Source: Shewanella litorisediminis (lineage in GTDB: Bacteria > Pseudomonadota > Gammaproteobacteria > Enterobacterales > Shewanellaceae). Taken from it: a stretch of 64,000 bases of DNA. Location: assembly GCF_016834455.1 (NCBI RefSeq), contig NZ_CP069213.1:3697501-3761500 (forward strand), written 5' to 3'. The position numbers were made by a program, and so were the translations under genes. The notes below the pieces were generated by a model, which saw only the letters and a list, made by a program, of their open reading frames with translations, had not been told where the DNA came from and ran no database searches. Each line of letters opens with the position of its first letter. Position 1 is the first letter of the stretch. Positions 54,395-61,959 of the stretch are shown piece by piece.

Positions 54395-55417
54395 TTAAAA
54401 GTCGTAGCGAACCCCCAGAGTGATAAGGTCGTCATCGAGGGACACATTCACACCGCCAAGCAGCAGGTCGCCATCGAAGCGGGTGTAATGGCCGTAAAGT
54501 TGGGTGCTCTTTGCAAGCTTGTAGTTGGCGCCCACACTCAGCTGACTCAGGTCAACCTCGCTGACGTCACTGAGCTTGCCGTCGGTTTGCGACTTGATAA
54601 AGCGCGACACATATTTGCCAAGGCCGGCATCATCCTGGCCGTACTCCAGCTTCAGCCGTGTCTTACCCAGGTCCCAGGCGAGGTTCACAAACCAGCTGCG
54701 ACCATCGAGGGCGGCAAGTTGCGGGTCCTGATGCTCGCTCTGCTGGAAGATACCGCCCAGCGTCCAATCACCCAGTTTTACCTGAGTCACGGCGCGGCTG
54801 GCGTCGATGTTGTCGATGCCGCTGTTGTAGGCAAGGGCCAGATACCAGGGCTGCTTCTTGAGGGATGCATCACCGGCAGTGGCCGAGACCGCATAAGCCG
54901 CCTCATCGGCGCCATAGTTATCGCTCAAAAGATAAGTGCCGTTAAGCTGCACCCATCCTGCCAAACTGGGCGACTGATAAGTGAGGCTGTCGCCAAAGCG
55001 GCCCTGACCCGGCAACAGGCGATCGATATCCGAGTTGCTGGTGCCGAAAATATCCACCTTGCCTTCGGCGGTTTTGAACACGCTGTCATTGCGGCCAAAG
55101 GTCAGGGCGCCGAAATCGGTTTTCACCCCAATGTAGGTGTTACGGGGTTTGAAGGTTTTGCCTGAGTTATCGAAGTTATCAACCCCAAACTCCAGCTTGT
55201 AAAACACTTCCAGCCCTTCGCCTATGGCTTCGCTGCCTTTCACCCCGATGCGGGATGAGTTGTTTTCCAGTACGGTACCTGCCTTGCCATTTTGGGCGGC
55301 CACACCGAGGCCAGAGTCGGTAACCGACAGATTGATACGACCATAGAAGTCAGCGTCGGCGGCCAGGGCGGCGCTGCCGGGAGCAAGCAGAGCCAGTGCA
55401 ATAAGCGTCTTGTTCAT
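54395..55417 (-). CDS. Gram-negative porin, linked to pgtP
   Basis: A 340-residue outer-membrane general-porin-type beta-barrel. It has a signal peptide (MNKTLIALALLAPGSAALA), an N-terminal strand DADFYGRINLSV, ENNSSRIGVKGSEAIGEGL near 49-67 and the C-terminal strand ITLGVRYDF ending in Phe. The ATG at 55417 gives the signal peptide. It lies 59 bases downstream of pgtP on the same strand and shares its terminator, so a role in letting phosphorylated C3 compounds into the periplasm is plausible. Confidence 0.88.
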   Translation of the reverse strand: MNKTLIALALLAPGSAALAADADFYGRINLSVTDSGLGVAAQNGKAGTVLENNSSRIGVKGSEAIGEGLEVFYKLEFGVDNFDNSGKTFKPRNTYIGVKTDFGALTFGRNDSVFKTAEGKVDIFGTSNSDIDRLLPGQGRFGDSLTYQSPSLAGWVQLNGTYLLSDNYGADEAAYAVSATAGDASLKKQPWYLALAYNSGIDNIDASRAVTQVKLGDWTLGGIFQQSEHQDPQLAALDGRSWFVNLAWDLGKTRLKLEYGQDDAGLGKYVSRFIKSQTDGKLSDVSEVDLSQLSVGANYKLAKSTQLYGHYTRFDGDLLLGGVNVSLDDDLITLGVRYDF

Positions 55418-55447
55418 GATGAAATTCCTTACGCGTTTGGTTTGCTT

Positions 55448-55471
55448 CGGGCCACCCGCTGGTGGCCCGGC
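55448..55471 (-). other. Intercistronic hairpin between pgtP and the porin gene
   Basis: CGGGCCACC / GGTGGCCCG with a CGCT loop and no T run. It may set relative expression of pgtP and the porin by mRNA processing or partial termination. Confidence 0.55.
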
Positions 55472-55476
55472 CGTTA

Positions 55477-56814
55477 TCAGTAATCCACGACTTTCTTGGC
55501 GTTCCACACACTCATGGCGAGGAACATGGACACCACGGCAGCGGCGAGCCAGAAGTACTGGGCGGTGGCAAAGTCATAGTGTTTTACGCCATCCACTTCA
55601 TGGATTTTGATAAGAGACGCAGACACGATTTCCTGAGCAGAGGCGGCGATGTATGAACACAGGCCAATAAAGCCTTTCACCGCGCCAACGGCTGTCTTGG
55701 GCATCAGGTCACAGGCAGTAAGACCGGCCAGGAACACCACCAGACCACCGATGGCATAGCCAATCAGACCAAGAGCAACCGCATCCACCACCCGGCTTTG
55801 AGGCCCCCAGAACATCAGGCACAGACCGGCGATGTTGGCCAGACCGTACAGCAATGTTGGGATGTGACGATTGGCGTTAAACAGCTTGTCAGAGATGATC
55901 CCGGCGAGGATAGCACCGGCGAAACCAGCAATGGGGTAAGCCGACATGGCAAAGCCCGCATCAATCAGACTGTAGCCTTTGGACTCCTGCAAATAGAGCA
56001 CGGCCCAGGAGCTCATGGCATAGCGTGAGATATACATGGCAGCACAGGCAAGGGCGATGATCCACACGGTAGGCTGCTTGAGGATAAACAGCTGGGCGCG
56101 GCGGATTTCCTTGGGATCGACCTTCTTTTTGATCTCGGCTTCTTCGCCATAGGCAACCGCTGGTTCTGGCAGACCATAGGTTTGGGGTCTGTCTTTGAGC
56201 GCAAAGTACATGGCGATGGCAGCGGCAAAGGTGGCAATACCTGCACCCACAAAACCGGCTCTCCAGCCAAAGAAGCTCACTACGGTGGCGGTCAGAATCC
56301 AGGTGATACCCTCACCGATGTTGCGCGAGCCACCCCAGATGGAGTACACAGAGCCCCGCTGTTTCGGCGAGAACCACTGGAAAATCGACACGCACGACGG
56401 CGCACTGCCCACCGACTGAAACCAACCATTCATCGCCCACAAGAGGATGAAGAAGAAGGTGGCAGTGTTCATACCCATCATCAAACAGGTGATGGCCGAC
56501 AACCCCAGCGACACCGACATAAAGCGGCCGATGTTGGCGTAGTCCGACAGGAAGCCGTTGGAAAACTTACCCACTGCATAGGTTAAGAAAAATGCCGAGC
56601 CTATGATCCCCAGTTCCTCCAGGGTCACAATGCCGGCGTCCAGCATAGGTTTCTTTGCGACGTTCAAACTCATGCGGGCGACGTAGAACATGGCATAACC
56701 CAGCACCAGTCCCAAGAACACCTGCCATTGATATTTCTTATAAATAGAGCGGATTTTTTCCGGTGTCCCTTCAATCAGGGGCTGATCCGGCCGCGTTTTG
56801 AAAAAGTCCAGCAT
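55477..56814 (-). CDS. pgtP: Phosphoglycerate transporter (MFS, organophosphate:phosphate antiporter)
   Basis: A 445-residue, twelve-helix MFS protein of the GlpT/UhpT/PgtP family. Hallmarks are KKYQWQVFLGLVLGYAMFYV near 26-45, RMSLNVAKKP, and the GSAPSCVSIFQWFSPKQRGS loop near 138-157. Members exchange phosphate for organophosphates across the inner membrane. The adjoining pgtC-pgtB-pgtA genes point to PgtP, which takes up 2- and 3-phosphoglycerate and phosphoenolpyruvate. The ATG at 56814 follows GGAGGAAGGCAG. Confidence 0.9.
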   Translation of the reverse strand: MLDFFKTRPDQPLIEGTPEKIRSIYKKYQWQVFLGLVLGYAMFYVARMSLNVAKKPMLDAGIVTLEELGIIGSAFFLTYAVGKFSNGFLSDYANIGRFMSVSLGLSAITCLMMGMNTATFFFILLWAMNGWFQSVGSAPSCVSIFQWFSPKQRGSVYSIWGGSRNIGEGITWILTATVVSFFGWRAGFVGAGIATFAAAIAMYFALKDRPQTYGLPEPAVAYGEEAEIKKKVDPKEIRRAQLFILKQPTVWIIALACAAMYISRYAMSSWAVLYLQESKGYSLIDAGFAMSAYPIAGFAGAILAGIISDKLFNANRHIPTLLYGLANIAGLCLMFWGPQSRVVDAVALGLIGYAIGGLVVFLAGLTACDLMPKTAVGAVKGFIGLCSYIAASAQEIVSASLIKIHEVDGVKHYDFATAQYFWLAAAVVSMFLAMSVWNAKKVVDY

Positions 56815-56913
56815 CTGCCTTCCTCCCACGTTAAGTTGCTCGTTCGCCGGGATCCGGCTCCCGACTCGCCAGCATCTTTTCAGGCACAATTGCCGGATAC
56901 AAAAGCGGCAAAC

Positions 56914-56931
56914 TGAGTCAGAATTAACTCA
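56914..56931. promoter_or_regulatory. Putative PgtA operator 1
   Basis: TGAGTCAGAATTAACTCA, an inverted repeat TGAGT-N8-ACTCA. It lies 100 bases upstream of the pgtP start. Its twin is at 57010-57027. Confidence 0.7.
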
Positions 56932-57009
56932 AAAGGCAGAATTTCCGGGTCAAATTTGGAATGGCTACACTCACCCTTGAGCACAGATTGTTGGAAAATA
57001 GGCCAACCT

Positions 57010-57027
57010 TGAGTCAGTTCCGACTCA
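57010..57027. promoter_or_regulatory. Putative PgtA operator 2
   Basis: TGAGTCAGTTCCGACTCA, same design as operator 1 and identical at 8 + 5 outer positions. It lies 46 bases upstream of pgtC, so the regulator may control both transporter and its own signalling genes. Confidence 0.7.
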
Positions 57028-57072: not shown

Positions 57073-58332
57073 ATGACACAAAAATCCCTGCTCGTCCTAC
57101 TGCTGATGCTCTTGGTTGGCTGGCCGCTAAACGGCCAGGCAAAAGAAAACTGCCTGGTGATCCTCACCTCTTTTTCCGAGCTGCCCTTTAAAGGACTGGT
57201 CGATAAGTTCTCGGCGCGGGAGCAGTGCGACGTGCGGGTGATTTATCGCCGTACCCTGCCCGCCATCCGGCTGCTGACCGATGAGAATCAGCCCCGCATC
57301 GATTTGGTGGTGTCATCTTCCCCCACCCTGTTCCAGACTCTGCATGAGCAAAATCTGCTGGCGCCACTGGGTGAGCTGCCCGCCGCCCCCGCCTGGCTCA
57401 AACGCCACAGCCTGCCCGCCGCCGATTATGTGCTGCCGGTGGCCTATTCAGGGATTGGGCTGATGTTTAATCGCGACTATCTCAATAAGCACGGGCTGCC
57501 ACAGCCCAAAAGCTGGCAGGATCTCGCAGAGCCCGGTTTTAACGGCCATGTGATGATGAGCTCCCCCAGCCATTCGGGCACGACCCATATGATGGTTGAA
57601 AACATATTGCAATCAGAAGGATGGGATGAGGGATGGGCGCTTTTAATGCGCATCGGCGGTAACCTGGCCTCCCTGTCGGCCCGAAGCTTTGGGGTGAGTG
57701 ATGCCATCAGCCGGGGGTTGGTCGGTGCCGGGCCCGTGATAGACAACTACGCCAGCGTGGCCCGCAGCCATTTTGATTATCTGGGCTTTACCTATTTGCC
57801 CGACACAGTGATTTTGCCCACCTATTGTGGCCTCACCACCAAGGCTGAACACGCCACCAAAGCGCGGCAGTTTTTAAGCTTTTTGCTGTCGGCCGAAGGC
57901 CAGACCATTCTCACCGAACCCGAATTTGCCAAAATCCCCCTGAGTGATGACAAGCTCGCCAACAGCACGGCCTTTGTTATCGAAAAGCAACAGCTGTTTT
58001 TACGCAACAACGTTATCAAGGCGGTGTTTGAACAGGCCATTGCGCAGCAGCTGCCCAAACTCCGCTACACCTGGCTTGCCATCATCAAGGCCCAGGGCGC
58101 CATGAAAGACTCCCCGAAAAACCATGACATATTGCGTCAGGCGATGACTCTGGCCAGTCGGGTGCCCATCAGTGAAGCCGAGGCCATGTCCCCCGATTTG
58201 CAGGCGGTGTTTGCCGACTATGAGCAGCAGCCCTCGGCGCAAATGGAGCGCACCATGCAGGACTGGCGTATGCAGGTAGCTCAGCAGCTGGAGCAGGCCA
58301 TGGCACTGGTTCGCACCCTGGAGTACCCCTGA
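57073..58332 (+). CDS. pgtC: PgtC-like periplasmic binding protein of the phosphoglycerate sensor
   Basis: A 419-residue periplasmic protein with a signal peptide (1-23, cut after GQA) and the two-lobed fold of ABC-type solute-binding proteins: CLVILTSFSELPFKGLVDKF near 27-46, YVLPVAYSGIGLMFNRDYL near 117-135, and PKSWQDL near 142-148. A charged helical C-terminus follows. In Salmonella PgtC works with PgtB to sense phosphoglycerates and induce pgtP. It begins the pgtC-pgtB-pgtA operon; its stop overlaps the pgtB ATG. Confidence 0.87.
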   Translation: MTQKSLLVLLLMLLVGWPLNGQAKENCLVILTSFSELPFKGLVDKFSAREQCDVRVIYRRTLPAIRLLTDENQPRIDLVVSSSPTLFQTLHEQNLLAPLGELPAAPAWLKRHSLPAADYVLPVAYSGIGLMFNRDYLNKHGLPQPKSWQDLAEPGFNGHVMMSSPSHSGTTHMMVENILQSEGWDEGWALLMRIGGNLASLSARSFGVSDAISRGLVGAGPVIDNYASVARSHFDYLGFTYLPDTVILPTYCGLTTKAEHATKARQFLSFLLSAEGQTILTEPEFAKIPLSDDKLANSTAFVIEKQQLFLRNNVIKAVFEQAIAQQLPKLRYTWLAIIKAQGAMKDSPKNHDILRQAMTLASRVPISEAEAMSPDLQAVFADYEQQPSAQMERTMQDWRMQVAQQLEQAMALVRTLEYP

Positions 58333-60707
58333 TGTCCCAGTCCCATTCACCCTTGGGCAGACGGCTCTTTATTGCCTTTTCGGCCATGTTGGGACTGACC
58401 TTGTTGGTGGGCCTCACCAGCCTGCTGATGTGGGACAGGCTCAGTGCCCAGGTCAGCAGTATCGTCAGTGAAAGCGTGCCCACGATTAATGCCACCTACA
58501 AACTTGAGCGCGCCAGCAACCGGCTGTTGCAACTCCTTGGGCAACTGCCCGGCGCAGAGGACGAAATCACCCTGCTGACACTGGAGCGGCAGGTAGCCGA
58601 GGCCATGGGCGAGCTCGAGAACGCCTATCTGGTGAACCTGCACAGTGACGATGAACTGGCCCTGCAGCAGGCCCGCTTTGCCGACCTGGAGGCGTTGATT
58701 CAGAGTCAGAGTGAGCTGCTGCGCCACCAACTGACACTGGCGCAGCACCTCTCGTCGCAGCAAAAACAGCTGGCGCGGCTGCATCAGGACTTAACCGATG
58801 AAATGACGCCTCTGCTGCAGGAAGTGGCCTGGCACCTGAGCGCACAGCTTGGCAACCGCACCTCGGTTAACACCATCAATTCGGTGCTGCAGGAATTTTC
58901 GGTGCTGCAGAATATCGCATTGAAAGAAAATGAAATTCATCAGCTCAGTGTCGAGATTATCAACCAGCGCCATCAGCGGGAGCTGGAACATGCCTTCTCG
59001 TTTATAGGCTTTCAAATTGATGAATTGAAGCTGCTCACCACCCAGCTCGCGGCCTACCCCTCTACCGTGAGCCATCGCCAGATTCTGCAGGAACTGGTTG
59101 AGCTGGTGAAACCCGATGGCGCCCTGCATCAACTGCTGACAGAAGATGTGGAAAATCAGCGTCAAATCAGAGGGCTGCAACCCAAAATTAATGAGCTTAT
59201 CCAGCCCTATCATGCTCAGGTGGTCACGGCAGTAACCCAGGCGAACACCCGTCTGGAGTCCTTGGTGCGGGCGACCAACCGCCAGGTGAGTCAGGGCAAG
59301 GCCTGGTTGCTGCTTATCCTCACCGGGGCGCTGATTTTAAGCACTTTCGTGCTCACAGGCCTTATCTCGCGGCGCCTGATTGGCCGCCTGAACCTGCTCA
59401 GCGAAGATTTGGCCAAGGTATGCAACAACGACCTGTCGAGCCCCTTAAGCGTGCGTGGCAATGATGAGATTGGCCGTCTGGGTGAACAGCTGCTGCAGTT
59501 TCGTGCCCAGCGGCAACTGATGGACAAGACCAACGCGCTCAACCTGATTAACAACACCCAGGCATGCCTGATTACCTGCCTGATGGACGGCACCATAGAA
59601 TCGGTTAACCCCACCGCGAGGGAGCTGTTGCCCCTGGGAAATGAACCGGAGCAATCGCTGCTGTGGCAAGCCTTTCCCCCGGCGGCCGCGCAGCAACTGG
59701 CTGACCAGTTTGCCCCGGGCAGCAGCTTACAGGTGCTCGGCCAGAGCGACTGTCTGCTGGAGCTGGGAGGCAACGAGGAGCAGGCCTTCTGGCACTTTGA
59801 TTTTCGCCGCTACGAACAGGCGGGGGAGCTTAAAACCATTATCACCATCACTGACATGACACGGCAGGAGCTTAATGCCCGCGAGCTGTCTGAACGGGTT
59901 GCCGAGCGAACCCGGGATCTTAAAGAAAAAAATCAGCAACTTGAGCAGGAAGTCGAGCGTCGTACCCAGGCCCAGAATGATCTGCTGCGCGCCCAGGATG
60001 AACTCATTCAGGCCGCCAAGATGGCAGTACTGGGCCAGGCAATGACCAGCATGGCCCATGAGCTGAACCAACCCCTGTCGGCCATATCCACCTTCCTCTA
60101 CACCAGTCGTCTGGCCGCCGAGCAGGGCGATACCGCAATGCTGACCGATAATCTCGAGCGCATAGGTCAGCTCAGTCAGCGGATGCACCGCATTGTGGGC
60201 GCCCTGAAGGAATTTGCCCGCAAAGGCCCACAAGTCCGGGTCCGGGAAGCCGTTTCGCTGGGCGAAATAGCCGATAATGCCCTGCTGCTGCTCGCCCCAA
60301 GGATAAAACGCGAGAACGTGCAGGTGGAGAGCCACCTCGACACCAATCTCAGCGTTATCGGCGATCCGGTCGAGATAGAACAGGTACTGATTAACCTTTT
60401 GGTCAATGCACTCGATGCCATTGCAAGCTGCGAGCAAAGGCAGATTCTTATAGAACAGCTGCCGCAGCCCGGCAGCACCCTGATTGCGATACAGGACAGT
60501 GGCCAAGGCTTCCCTGAGGCCGTGCTGCAAAAGCTCTTTTCACCTTTTGTCACCACCAAGGAAGTGGGTTTGGGGCTTGGGCTGTCTATTTGCCGAACCC
60601 TGATGGAGCGCCAGGAAGGCGATATCCGCCTTGCCTGCTCCATGGAAGGCAATACCCTGATGCTGCTGGAGTTTAATCATGTCCCATCTGCTGAAACCCA
60701 AGCCTAA
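58332..60707 (+). CDS. pgtB: PgtB-like sensor histidine kinase
   Basis: A 791-residue inner-membrane kinase. In order: TM helix (about 9-30), large helical periplasmic sensor (35-322), second TM (323-345), HAMP (346-400; LSSPLSVRGNDEIGRL), a PAS-like domain (about 405-510), coiled coil (515-560), and dimerisation domain with phospho-acceptor His in MAHELNQPLSA near 575. The ATPase has NLLVNALDAI (N box), DSGQGFP and GLGLGLSICRTL. It is longer than many kinases because of the sensor. It should phosphorylate PgtA. Confidence 0.92.
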   Translation: MSQSHSPLGRRLFIAFSAMLGLTLLVGLTSLLMWDRLSAQVSSIVSESVPTINATYKLERASNRLLQLLGQLPGAEDEITLLTLERQVAEAMGELENAYLVNLHSDDELALQQARFADLEALIQSQSELLRHQLTLAQHLSSQQKQLARLHQDLTDEMTPLLQEVAWHLSAQLGNRTSVNTINSVLQEFSVLQNIALKENEIHQLSVEIINQRHQRELEHAFSFIGFQIDELKLLTTQLAAYPSTVSHRQILQELVELVKPDGALHQLLTEDVENQRQIRGLQPKINELIQPYHAQVVTAVTQANTRLESLVRATNRQVSQGKAWLLLILTGALILSTFVLTGLISRRLIGRLNLLSEDLAKVCNNDLSSPLSVRGNDEIGRLGEQLLQFRAQRQLMDKTNALNLINNTQACLITCLMDGTIESVNPTARELLPLGNEPEQSLLWQAFPPAAAQQLADQFAPGSSLQVLGQSDCLLELGGNEEQAFWHFDFRRYEQAGELKTIITITDMTRQELNARELSERVAERTRDLKEKNQQLEQEVERRTQAQNDLLRAQDELIQAAKMAVLGQAMTSMAHELNQPLSAISTFLYTSRLAAEQGDTAMLTDNLERIGQLSQRMHRIVGALKEFARKGPQVRVREAVSLGEIADNALLLLAPRIKRENVQVESHLDTNLSVIGDPVEIEQVLINLLVNALDAIASCEQRQILIEQLPQPGSTLIAIQDSGQGFPEAVLQKLFSPFVTTKEVGLGLGLSICRTLMERQEGDIRLACSMEGNTLMLLEFNHVPSAETQA

Positions 60708-61959
60708 TCTGCTGCTTATCGATGACGATGAAGACGTGCTGGACGCCTGCCGTCAGCTGTTTAGTCTGTCCGGGTATCAGGTGCGGGCAACCAGCTCACC
60801 GCAAAAAGCGCTGGAGGTGTTGAGCCGCGACTGGAACGGCGTGGTGGTGAGCGACATCTATATGCCCGCCATGCACGGGCTGGAGCTGCTTGCTGCCGTG
60901 CACCACATTGACCCGCAGATCCCTGTCATCATGATAACAGGTCATGCCGATATTCCTCTGGCGGTGAAGGCCGTCAAACAAGGGGCAGCCGACTTTATCG
61001 AAAAACCCCTGGACCCGCCGACGTTTCTTGCCCTTGTGAAAAAAGCGGCCACCCAGCGCCACCAACTGATTGACCTGCGGCAAAACATTCAGGACTCCCT
61101 GGCCGGTCAGCTCCTTGGCAGCAGCGCCCAAATCAATGACCTGCGTGAGCAGCTTGGGCAGCTCGCCTTAACCGACAGAGACGTGATGCTGGAAGGCCCC
61201 CGCGGGGTGGGTCGCAATACCCTGGCGGCCCTGCTGCATAAACTCGGGCCCCGCTGTGACGGCCCACTGCAACAGCTGGAATGCGCTCTGGTGGAAAGCC
61301 CGGAGAAACTGCAGCAGGCGGTGGAGGCAAGCCGCGGCGGCACCCTGATCTTACGGGAGCTTGAGCACCTTGCCACCGACAGCCAGCGCTGGCTGGCGAG
61401 TTTCCTGCTGGATCAGGAACGCAGGGGCAACAAGGAAGTACGCACCATTGCCATTCTGGAAAGCCAGCCCGAAGCCCTGGTGCAGGAGCAAACCCTTACC
61501 CCCGAATGCTTTTACTATTTCTCTCAGGTCAGGCTGCGTCTGCCGGCACTTTGCGAACGGCCAAGCGATATAGTGCCCCTGTTTATGGCCTTTTTGAAAG
61601 AAAGCTGCCGCCGCTTGTCCCGCAAGATGCCCGCGGTGGAAAACCGCTATCTGGACAACCTCAAGCAGCACAGCTGGCCCGGTAATGTGCGTGAACTCAG
61701 AAACGTGGCCGAGCTCTATGCGGTCGGTATCGTCAAGCTGGCCAATGTACAGCGGATTGCCACCGCGCCGTCGGTCAAAGGCCCATTGGATGAACTGGTG
61801 GACGACTATGAAAAGCGCCTGATTGAAGATGCGCTGTTTCTGTTCTCTGGCCGGGTATCAGAGGCGGCGGACTACCTGAATGTGCCCCGTAAGAAATTGT
61901 ATTTGAGGATGAAAAAGTACGGTCTCGATAAGGAGTGTTTTAAGCCGGGACGGGGCTAA
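60679..61959 (+). CDS. pgtA: PgtA-like response regulator (NtrC family, degenerate AAA+)
   Basis: A 426-residue regulator. Receiver 1-125 has the acidic pair in IDDDED, the phosphorylation site Asp59 in VVVSDIYMP, and the lysine in FIEKP. The central region is NtrC-like in length and end (WPGNVRELRNVAELY near 336-350). But Walker A is altered (EGPRGVGRN) and the GAFTGA loop that contacts sigma-54 is absent. The C-terminal Fis-type HTH is SEAADYLNVPRKKLYLRMKK. So it should act as an ordinary DNA-binding activator. It overlaps pgtB by 29 bases. Confidence 0.9.
   Translation: MSHLLKPKPNLLLIDDDEDVLDACRQLFSLSGYQVRATSSPQKALEVLSRDWNGVVVSDIYMPAMHGLELLAAVHHIDPQIPVIMITGHADIPLAVKAVKQGAADFIEKPLDPPTFLALVKKAATQRHQLIDLRQNIQDSLAGQLLGSSAQINDLREQLGQLALTDRDVMLEGPRGVGRNTLAALLHKLGPRCDGPLQQLECALVESPEKLQQAVEASRGGTLILRELEHLATDSQRWLASFLLDQERRGNKEVRTIAILESQPEALVQEQTLTPECFYYFSQVRLRLPALCERPSDIVPLFMAFLKESCRRLSRKMPAVENRYLDNLKQHSWPGNVRELRNVAELYAVGIVKLANVQRIATAPSVKGPLDELVDDYEKRLIEDALFLFSGRVSEAADYLNVPRKKLYLRMKKYGLDKECFKPGRG

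Follow-up and report, generated by a model that had tools for sequence, protein, structure and literature searches.

The spacer between a putative organophosphate transporter gene and a divergently transcribed pgtC homolog in this 64-kb stretch of Shewanella DNA (hereafter the window) carries two similar dyads, raising the question of which regulator they serve and what that regulator controls. The analysis presented here makes it very likely that these dyads (A and B), together with a third, degenerate site (M), form a three-site array for the locus's own PgtA homolog, controlling both divergent transcripts. The coordinates of all the features discussed are given in the table below.

Features of the transporter-pgtCBA locus, in window coordinates
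Feature	Position	Strand	Description
Porin gene	54395..55507	-	3' of the transporter gene, adjacent and on the same strand, possibly one operon; the long ORF is listed
Transporter gene	55477..56814	-	MFS, organophosphate:phosphate antiporter family; 'pgtP' of the earlier note, not PgtP by sequence
Predicted transporter promoter	56874..56902	-	-35 TTGTAT (56902-56897), 17-bp spacer, -10 AAAGAT (56879-56874)
Putative operator A, TGAGTCAGAATTAACTCA	56914..56931		Lies between the two divergent promoters, candidate upstream site for both; matrix rank 2 in 64 kb
Site M, CGGGTCAAATTTGGAATG	56946..56963	+	Degenerate dyad, one half intact, 32 bp from A
Predicted pgtC promoter, -10 GAAAAT	56994..56999	+	Conserved offset from A
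Putative operator B, TGAGTCAGTTCCGACTCA	57010..57027		Predicted just downstream of the pgtC transcription start; matrix rank 1 in 64 kb
pgtC homolog	57073..58332	+	Periplasmic solute-binding-type sensor partner; SBP_bac_6/SBP_bac_11 matches; relatives at 7 other Shewanella loci
pgtB homolog	58332..60707	+	Membrane histidine kinase; best NCBIfam match PgtB, 301 bits (cut-off 1000)
pgtA homolog	60679..61959	+	Response regulator; AAA+ domain without GAFTGA, Fis-type HTH; Pfam Response_reg, Sigma54_activ_2, HTH_8

The two 18-bp dyads that the earlier note had reported in this divergent region are present as described, with their centers 96 bp apart in a spacer of 258 bp; the start codon of pgtC (ATG at 57073) is 45 bp away from B, and that of the transporter gene (ATG at 56814) is 99 bp away from A. 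The rule under which they had been paired, TGAGTCAG-N5-ACTCA, fits both sites, but it represents a local form of a symmetric consensus, TGRGTCA-N4-TGACYCA, obtained from 45 non-Shewanella pgt loci; the window thus has an 18-bp dyad of this type in the spacer that separates pgtC from the transporter gene. A genome scan for the rule, proposed in the same note, returned A and B as the only exact matches in the 64-kb window, and single exact matches at a rate of about 0.5 per Shewanella genome, with at least one in 46 of 127 genomes. The rule alone is therefore not rare, and the weight of the argument rests on the pair and on its conservation. A matrix trained on the 45 non-Shewanella loci, and hence blind to the genus of the window, placed B (22.5 bits) and A (21.5 bits) above every other position of the 64 kb, the third-best match (31834) being located within an ORF. 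When the spacer was resampled with a Markov model, just one of 40,000 resamples contained even a single site that good. The matrix scan covered the window, and the rest of the genome was searched by pattern: four of the five exact or near-exact matches checked elsewhere fall within long open frames, and a genome-wide regulon was rejected because the box showed no enrichment at up to two mismatches (51 matches, against 61 for the control).

Genes of the pgtC type at this locus were identified in 8 of 129 Shewanella genomes, one of them that of the window; two more weak matches in the genus are partial and concern other binding proteins. All eight loci present two dyads in the spacer. Among the five closest, none of the 24 core columns is variable, as opposed to 75 of 222 columns outside the core (p=1e-4), while 7 of the 12 degenerate columns vary; in the three more distant loci the spacer has diverged and still contains two dyads, 105 bp apart. 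The loci collected outside the genus come from Vibrio, Aliivibrio, Proteus, Plesiomonas, Klebsiella, Salmonella, Providencia, E. coli plasmids and further families; some of them are closely related, and both the training set and the enumeration set excluded near-duplicates. Given that the matrix fit was seeded with the consensus, we also enumerated, without a seed, every hexamer dyad with a gap of 0-12; TGAGTC-N6-GACTCA came first, present in 35 of 43 non-Shewanella loci (15 at most in shuffled sequences). Overall, 55 of 61 pgt-type loci contain a site scoring 15 bits or more, so that the outcome which the earlier note had named as fatal to its proposal, the absence of the dyads from other genomes with pgt genes, did not materialize. 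In an Aliiroseovarius locus (L033:5600-5850), two similar dyads, CGGGTCAGAATTAACCCA and CGGGTCATTACTGCCCCA, lie 23 bp apart between pgtC and a pgtA homolog lacking GAFTGA, and the box therefore reaches the Alphaproteobacteria.

The initial picture of two operators holds insofar as both are conserved, but it missed the degenerate site M, with which the array comprises three sites. M is weak in the window when scored with the full matrix (1.9 bits). Across loci, the half-site score peaks at A+33 in the Shewanella, Vibrio and aeromonad-type loci (group I; z=5.0) and at A+32 in the enteric and Pasteurellaceae-like loci (z=6.1), in each case as the top offset; M was not seen in two of the Shewanella loci (L106 and L107). 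The spacing between A and B is also structured. The 37 pairs fall into two classes, 95-98 and 105-109 bp, which differ by one helical turn, with none at 99-104 bp; in enteric loci the distance is larger, 161 to 219 bp, and B has diverged there. The possibility that A and B are chance palindromes, which draws on how common single rule matches are in the genus, is practically nil in view of the held-out ranking, the dyad enumeration, the conservation of the core and the spacing classes, and is refuted by conservation across families.

The earlier note had pointed to PgtA as the obvious binder. The product of the pgtA homolog in the window combines a receiver domain, an AAA+ domain that lacks GAFTGA, and a Fis-type HTH with the helix PRKKLYLRM, as does Salmonella PgtA. 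Its best family match is NCBIfam NF047793, at 450.5 bits; since this is below the curated cut-off of 650, we refer to it as a PgtA homolog and not as a confirmed equivalog. Wherever a good box and the regulator are encoded on the same contig, the helix PRK(K/R)LYLRM is present (K/L changes occur rarely, close to its end) and GAFTGA is absent, as it is from PgtA at all the gammaproteobacterial loci examined. At two loci (L015 and L086) the helix is changed to QRKKLY and there is no good box, in keeping with PgtA as the binder although such cases number only two; a search for more changed-helix loci in the genus of genome G241 yielded no further pgt locus. Likewise, two alphaproteobacterial loci (L071 and L072) encode a PgtA relative that has RKTLYLKM and keeps GAFTGA, and lack a good box. 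In Salmonella, a PpgtP reporter fragment (-435 to -25) responds to 3PG through PgtA (PMC11077982), and in this analysis we located sites A (-90/-107), M (-122/-139) and B (-309/-326) within it. We found no PgtA consensus or binding site in the accessible literature, the Salmonella work of 1988-1995 being outside its coverage. The near-invariant helix, the missing GAFTGA loop and the three sites in the 3PG-responsive Salmonella fragment make PgtA the best candidate by far, and we infer with high confidence that the dyads are PgtA operators.

Linkage alone does not name the binding protein, and the dyads could in principle be operators of another, widely shared regulator that also controls the pgt loci. 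Such an arrangement appears quite improbable. The two-site array pattern turned up in four of the 395 genomes searched in the order, always beside pgtC, and the box shows no enrichment elsewhere in the genome. Furthermore, box and PgtA helix go together across families, up to and including a locus in the Rhodobacterales, and the box is absent from precisely those two alphaproteobacterial loci in which both the helix and the GAFTGA status differ.

The arrangement of the sites suggests how PgtA might operate. Toward pgtC, 25 of 32 loci have a -10-like hexamer between A+79 and A+81 (no more than 9 in shuffles). On the minus strand, 28 of 29 loci have TTTG at an identical distance from A, the best other offset accounting for 2, and a weaker -10 follows it seventeen bases on. 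A scan for sigma-70-like sites in the region returned none, and these promoter elements are weak consensus matches. On these predicted positions, the transporter promoter would have A at around -56, the pgtC promoter would have M at around -50, and B would follow shortly after the pgtC start; the predicted starts lie near 56867 (minus strand) and 57006 (plus strand). Once PgtC has bound an external phosphate ester, PgtB would phosphorylate PgtA, and a PgtA dimer would then bind A through its Fis-type HTH and, with the help of A, also M, the weak site three turns further on. With A and M both occupied, a sigma-70 promoter for the transporter, and with it the porin, could be activated from about -56 and that of pgtCBA from about -50. 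The detailed promoter model stands at roughly even chances of being right, and the part given to B in the array is guesswork, offered tentatively. We also considered, and rejected, conservation of an RNA structure in the leader of the transporter: the fold in the window is no better than that of shuffled sequences, and only mildly better in some relatives. In some vibrios, CCUCCGUG in the leader is able to pair with the Shine-Dalgarno region CACGGAG (L019:5666-5731, minus strand; z ~-1.9), a pairing seen neither in all relatives nor in the window.

It is conceivable, and would be only a moderate surprise, that PgtA binds the array and that A and M alone activate, with B acting as a separate element, for instance in self-repression only, and not as part of a cooperative unit. 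The predicted position of B just downstream of the pgtC start agrees with this possibility, as do its divergence and its distance from A in enteric loci. The quantization of the A-B spacing by one turn (95-98 or 105-109 bp) points instead to joint action of the sites.

The nature of the transporter under this control is a separate matter. Its designation as PgtP did not withstand comparison with reference proteins: the protein is 28% identical to Salmonella PgtP, 31% to GlpT and 33% to E. coli UhpC, and is thus no closer to PgtP than to the other two, UhpC being the closest reference. It also scores below the cut-offs of both models for PgtP, NF047787 (169 bits; cut-off 750) and TIGR00881 (243 bits; cut-off 407.75). 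The transporter is therefore not PgtP by sequence, and 3-phosphoglycerate is not established as its ligand. It belongs to a tight group, with members 74-98% identical to that of the window in Shewanella, Vibrio, Photobacterium, Proteus, Plesiomonas and others of the order, and is the only transporter of this group found in the window's genome; a search of an E. coli genome with the transporter DNA gave no match. In the non-Shewanella members of this group, PgtC is only 33-54% identical. The downstream porin gene is also present in most Shewanella pgt loci, and its true start is likely the internal MNKTLIALALL, past the transporter stop. In most non-Shewanella loci of the group, including those of vibrios, Proteus and Plesiomonas, a pyruvate kinase gene lies 3' of the transporter on the same strand (e.g. 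L066:2726-4189), which hints at PEP or a phosphoglycerate as the transporter substrate.

Enteric loci encode a true PgtP and carry the box, and one Pasteurellaceae-like locus with the box encodes a GlpT-like protein (57% identical to GlpT). Three Pasteurellaceae-like loci (L098, L101 and L109, in the small genomes G385, G486 and G461) have pgtCBA and box-like sites, with either a GlpT-like transporter or no adjacent MFS gene found. The Salmonella pgtP-pgtCBA locus matches that of the window in gene order, in divergence and in its PgtC, PgtB and PgtA homologs, and we found the same three-site array in its intergenic region (TGTGTCAAAATTGACTCA, M at +32, and B). It differs in its PgtP transporter, in an A-B distance of 219 bp instead of 96 bp, and in having no porin gene after the transporter. 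The presence of the same box in front of a true PgtP in Salmonella and its relatives indicates that the regulatory circuit was retained while one transporter took the place of another. It seems somewhat more probable than otherwise that the three-site grammar, with A and M 32-33 bp apart and the A-B distance shifting by a whole turn in most lineages, was kept across several families during this exchange. A similar measure of belief attaches to the range of transporters behind it, which would comprise UhpC-like MFS proteins, PgtP, GlpT-like MFS proteins or, in some Pasteurellaceae-like loci, no adjacent MFS protein.

Known systems offer partial parallels. TyrR is a regulator with a Fis-type HTH that acts at sigma-70 promoters. 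Its boxes, TGTAAA-N6-TTTACA, occur as strong and weak sites at the divergent akr-ipdC region of Enterobacter cloacae (PMC4374768). Like the pgt box, they are dyads of 18 bp in which a G and a C spaced 14 bp from each other are invariant, and both systems combine strong and weak sites; the pgt half-site is instead TGAGTCA, and PgtA is a phosphorylated response regulator, whereas TyrR binds a ligand. PgtA shares its receiver, AAA+ and Fis-type HTH domains with enhancer-binding response regulators of the NtrC/DctD type but, unlike these, lacks the GAFTGA loop, so activation of sigma-54 is not expected. The E. coli UhpABC-UhpT system similarly induces an organophosphate antiporter in response to an external substrate, and UhpC is the nearest reference of the window's transporter; it differs in that UhpA is another type of regulator, the sensor partner in the window being a PgtC-type binding protein.

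In Salmonella, PgtA was recognized as an activator as early as the 1980s, and the box and its geometry make its binding, cooperativity and promoter choice directly testable. Because the circuit is conserved and the transporter, perhaps together with its substrate, is not, the neighboring transporter cannot safely be annotated as PgtP. Among these results, the operator itself is less surprising than the exchange of transporters behind an operator that stayed fixed. If true, the sensor-operator unit would constitute a portable control cassette for the uptake of phosphate esters.
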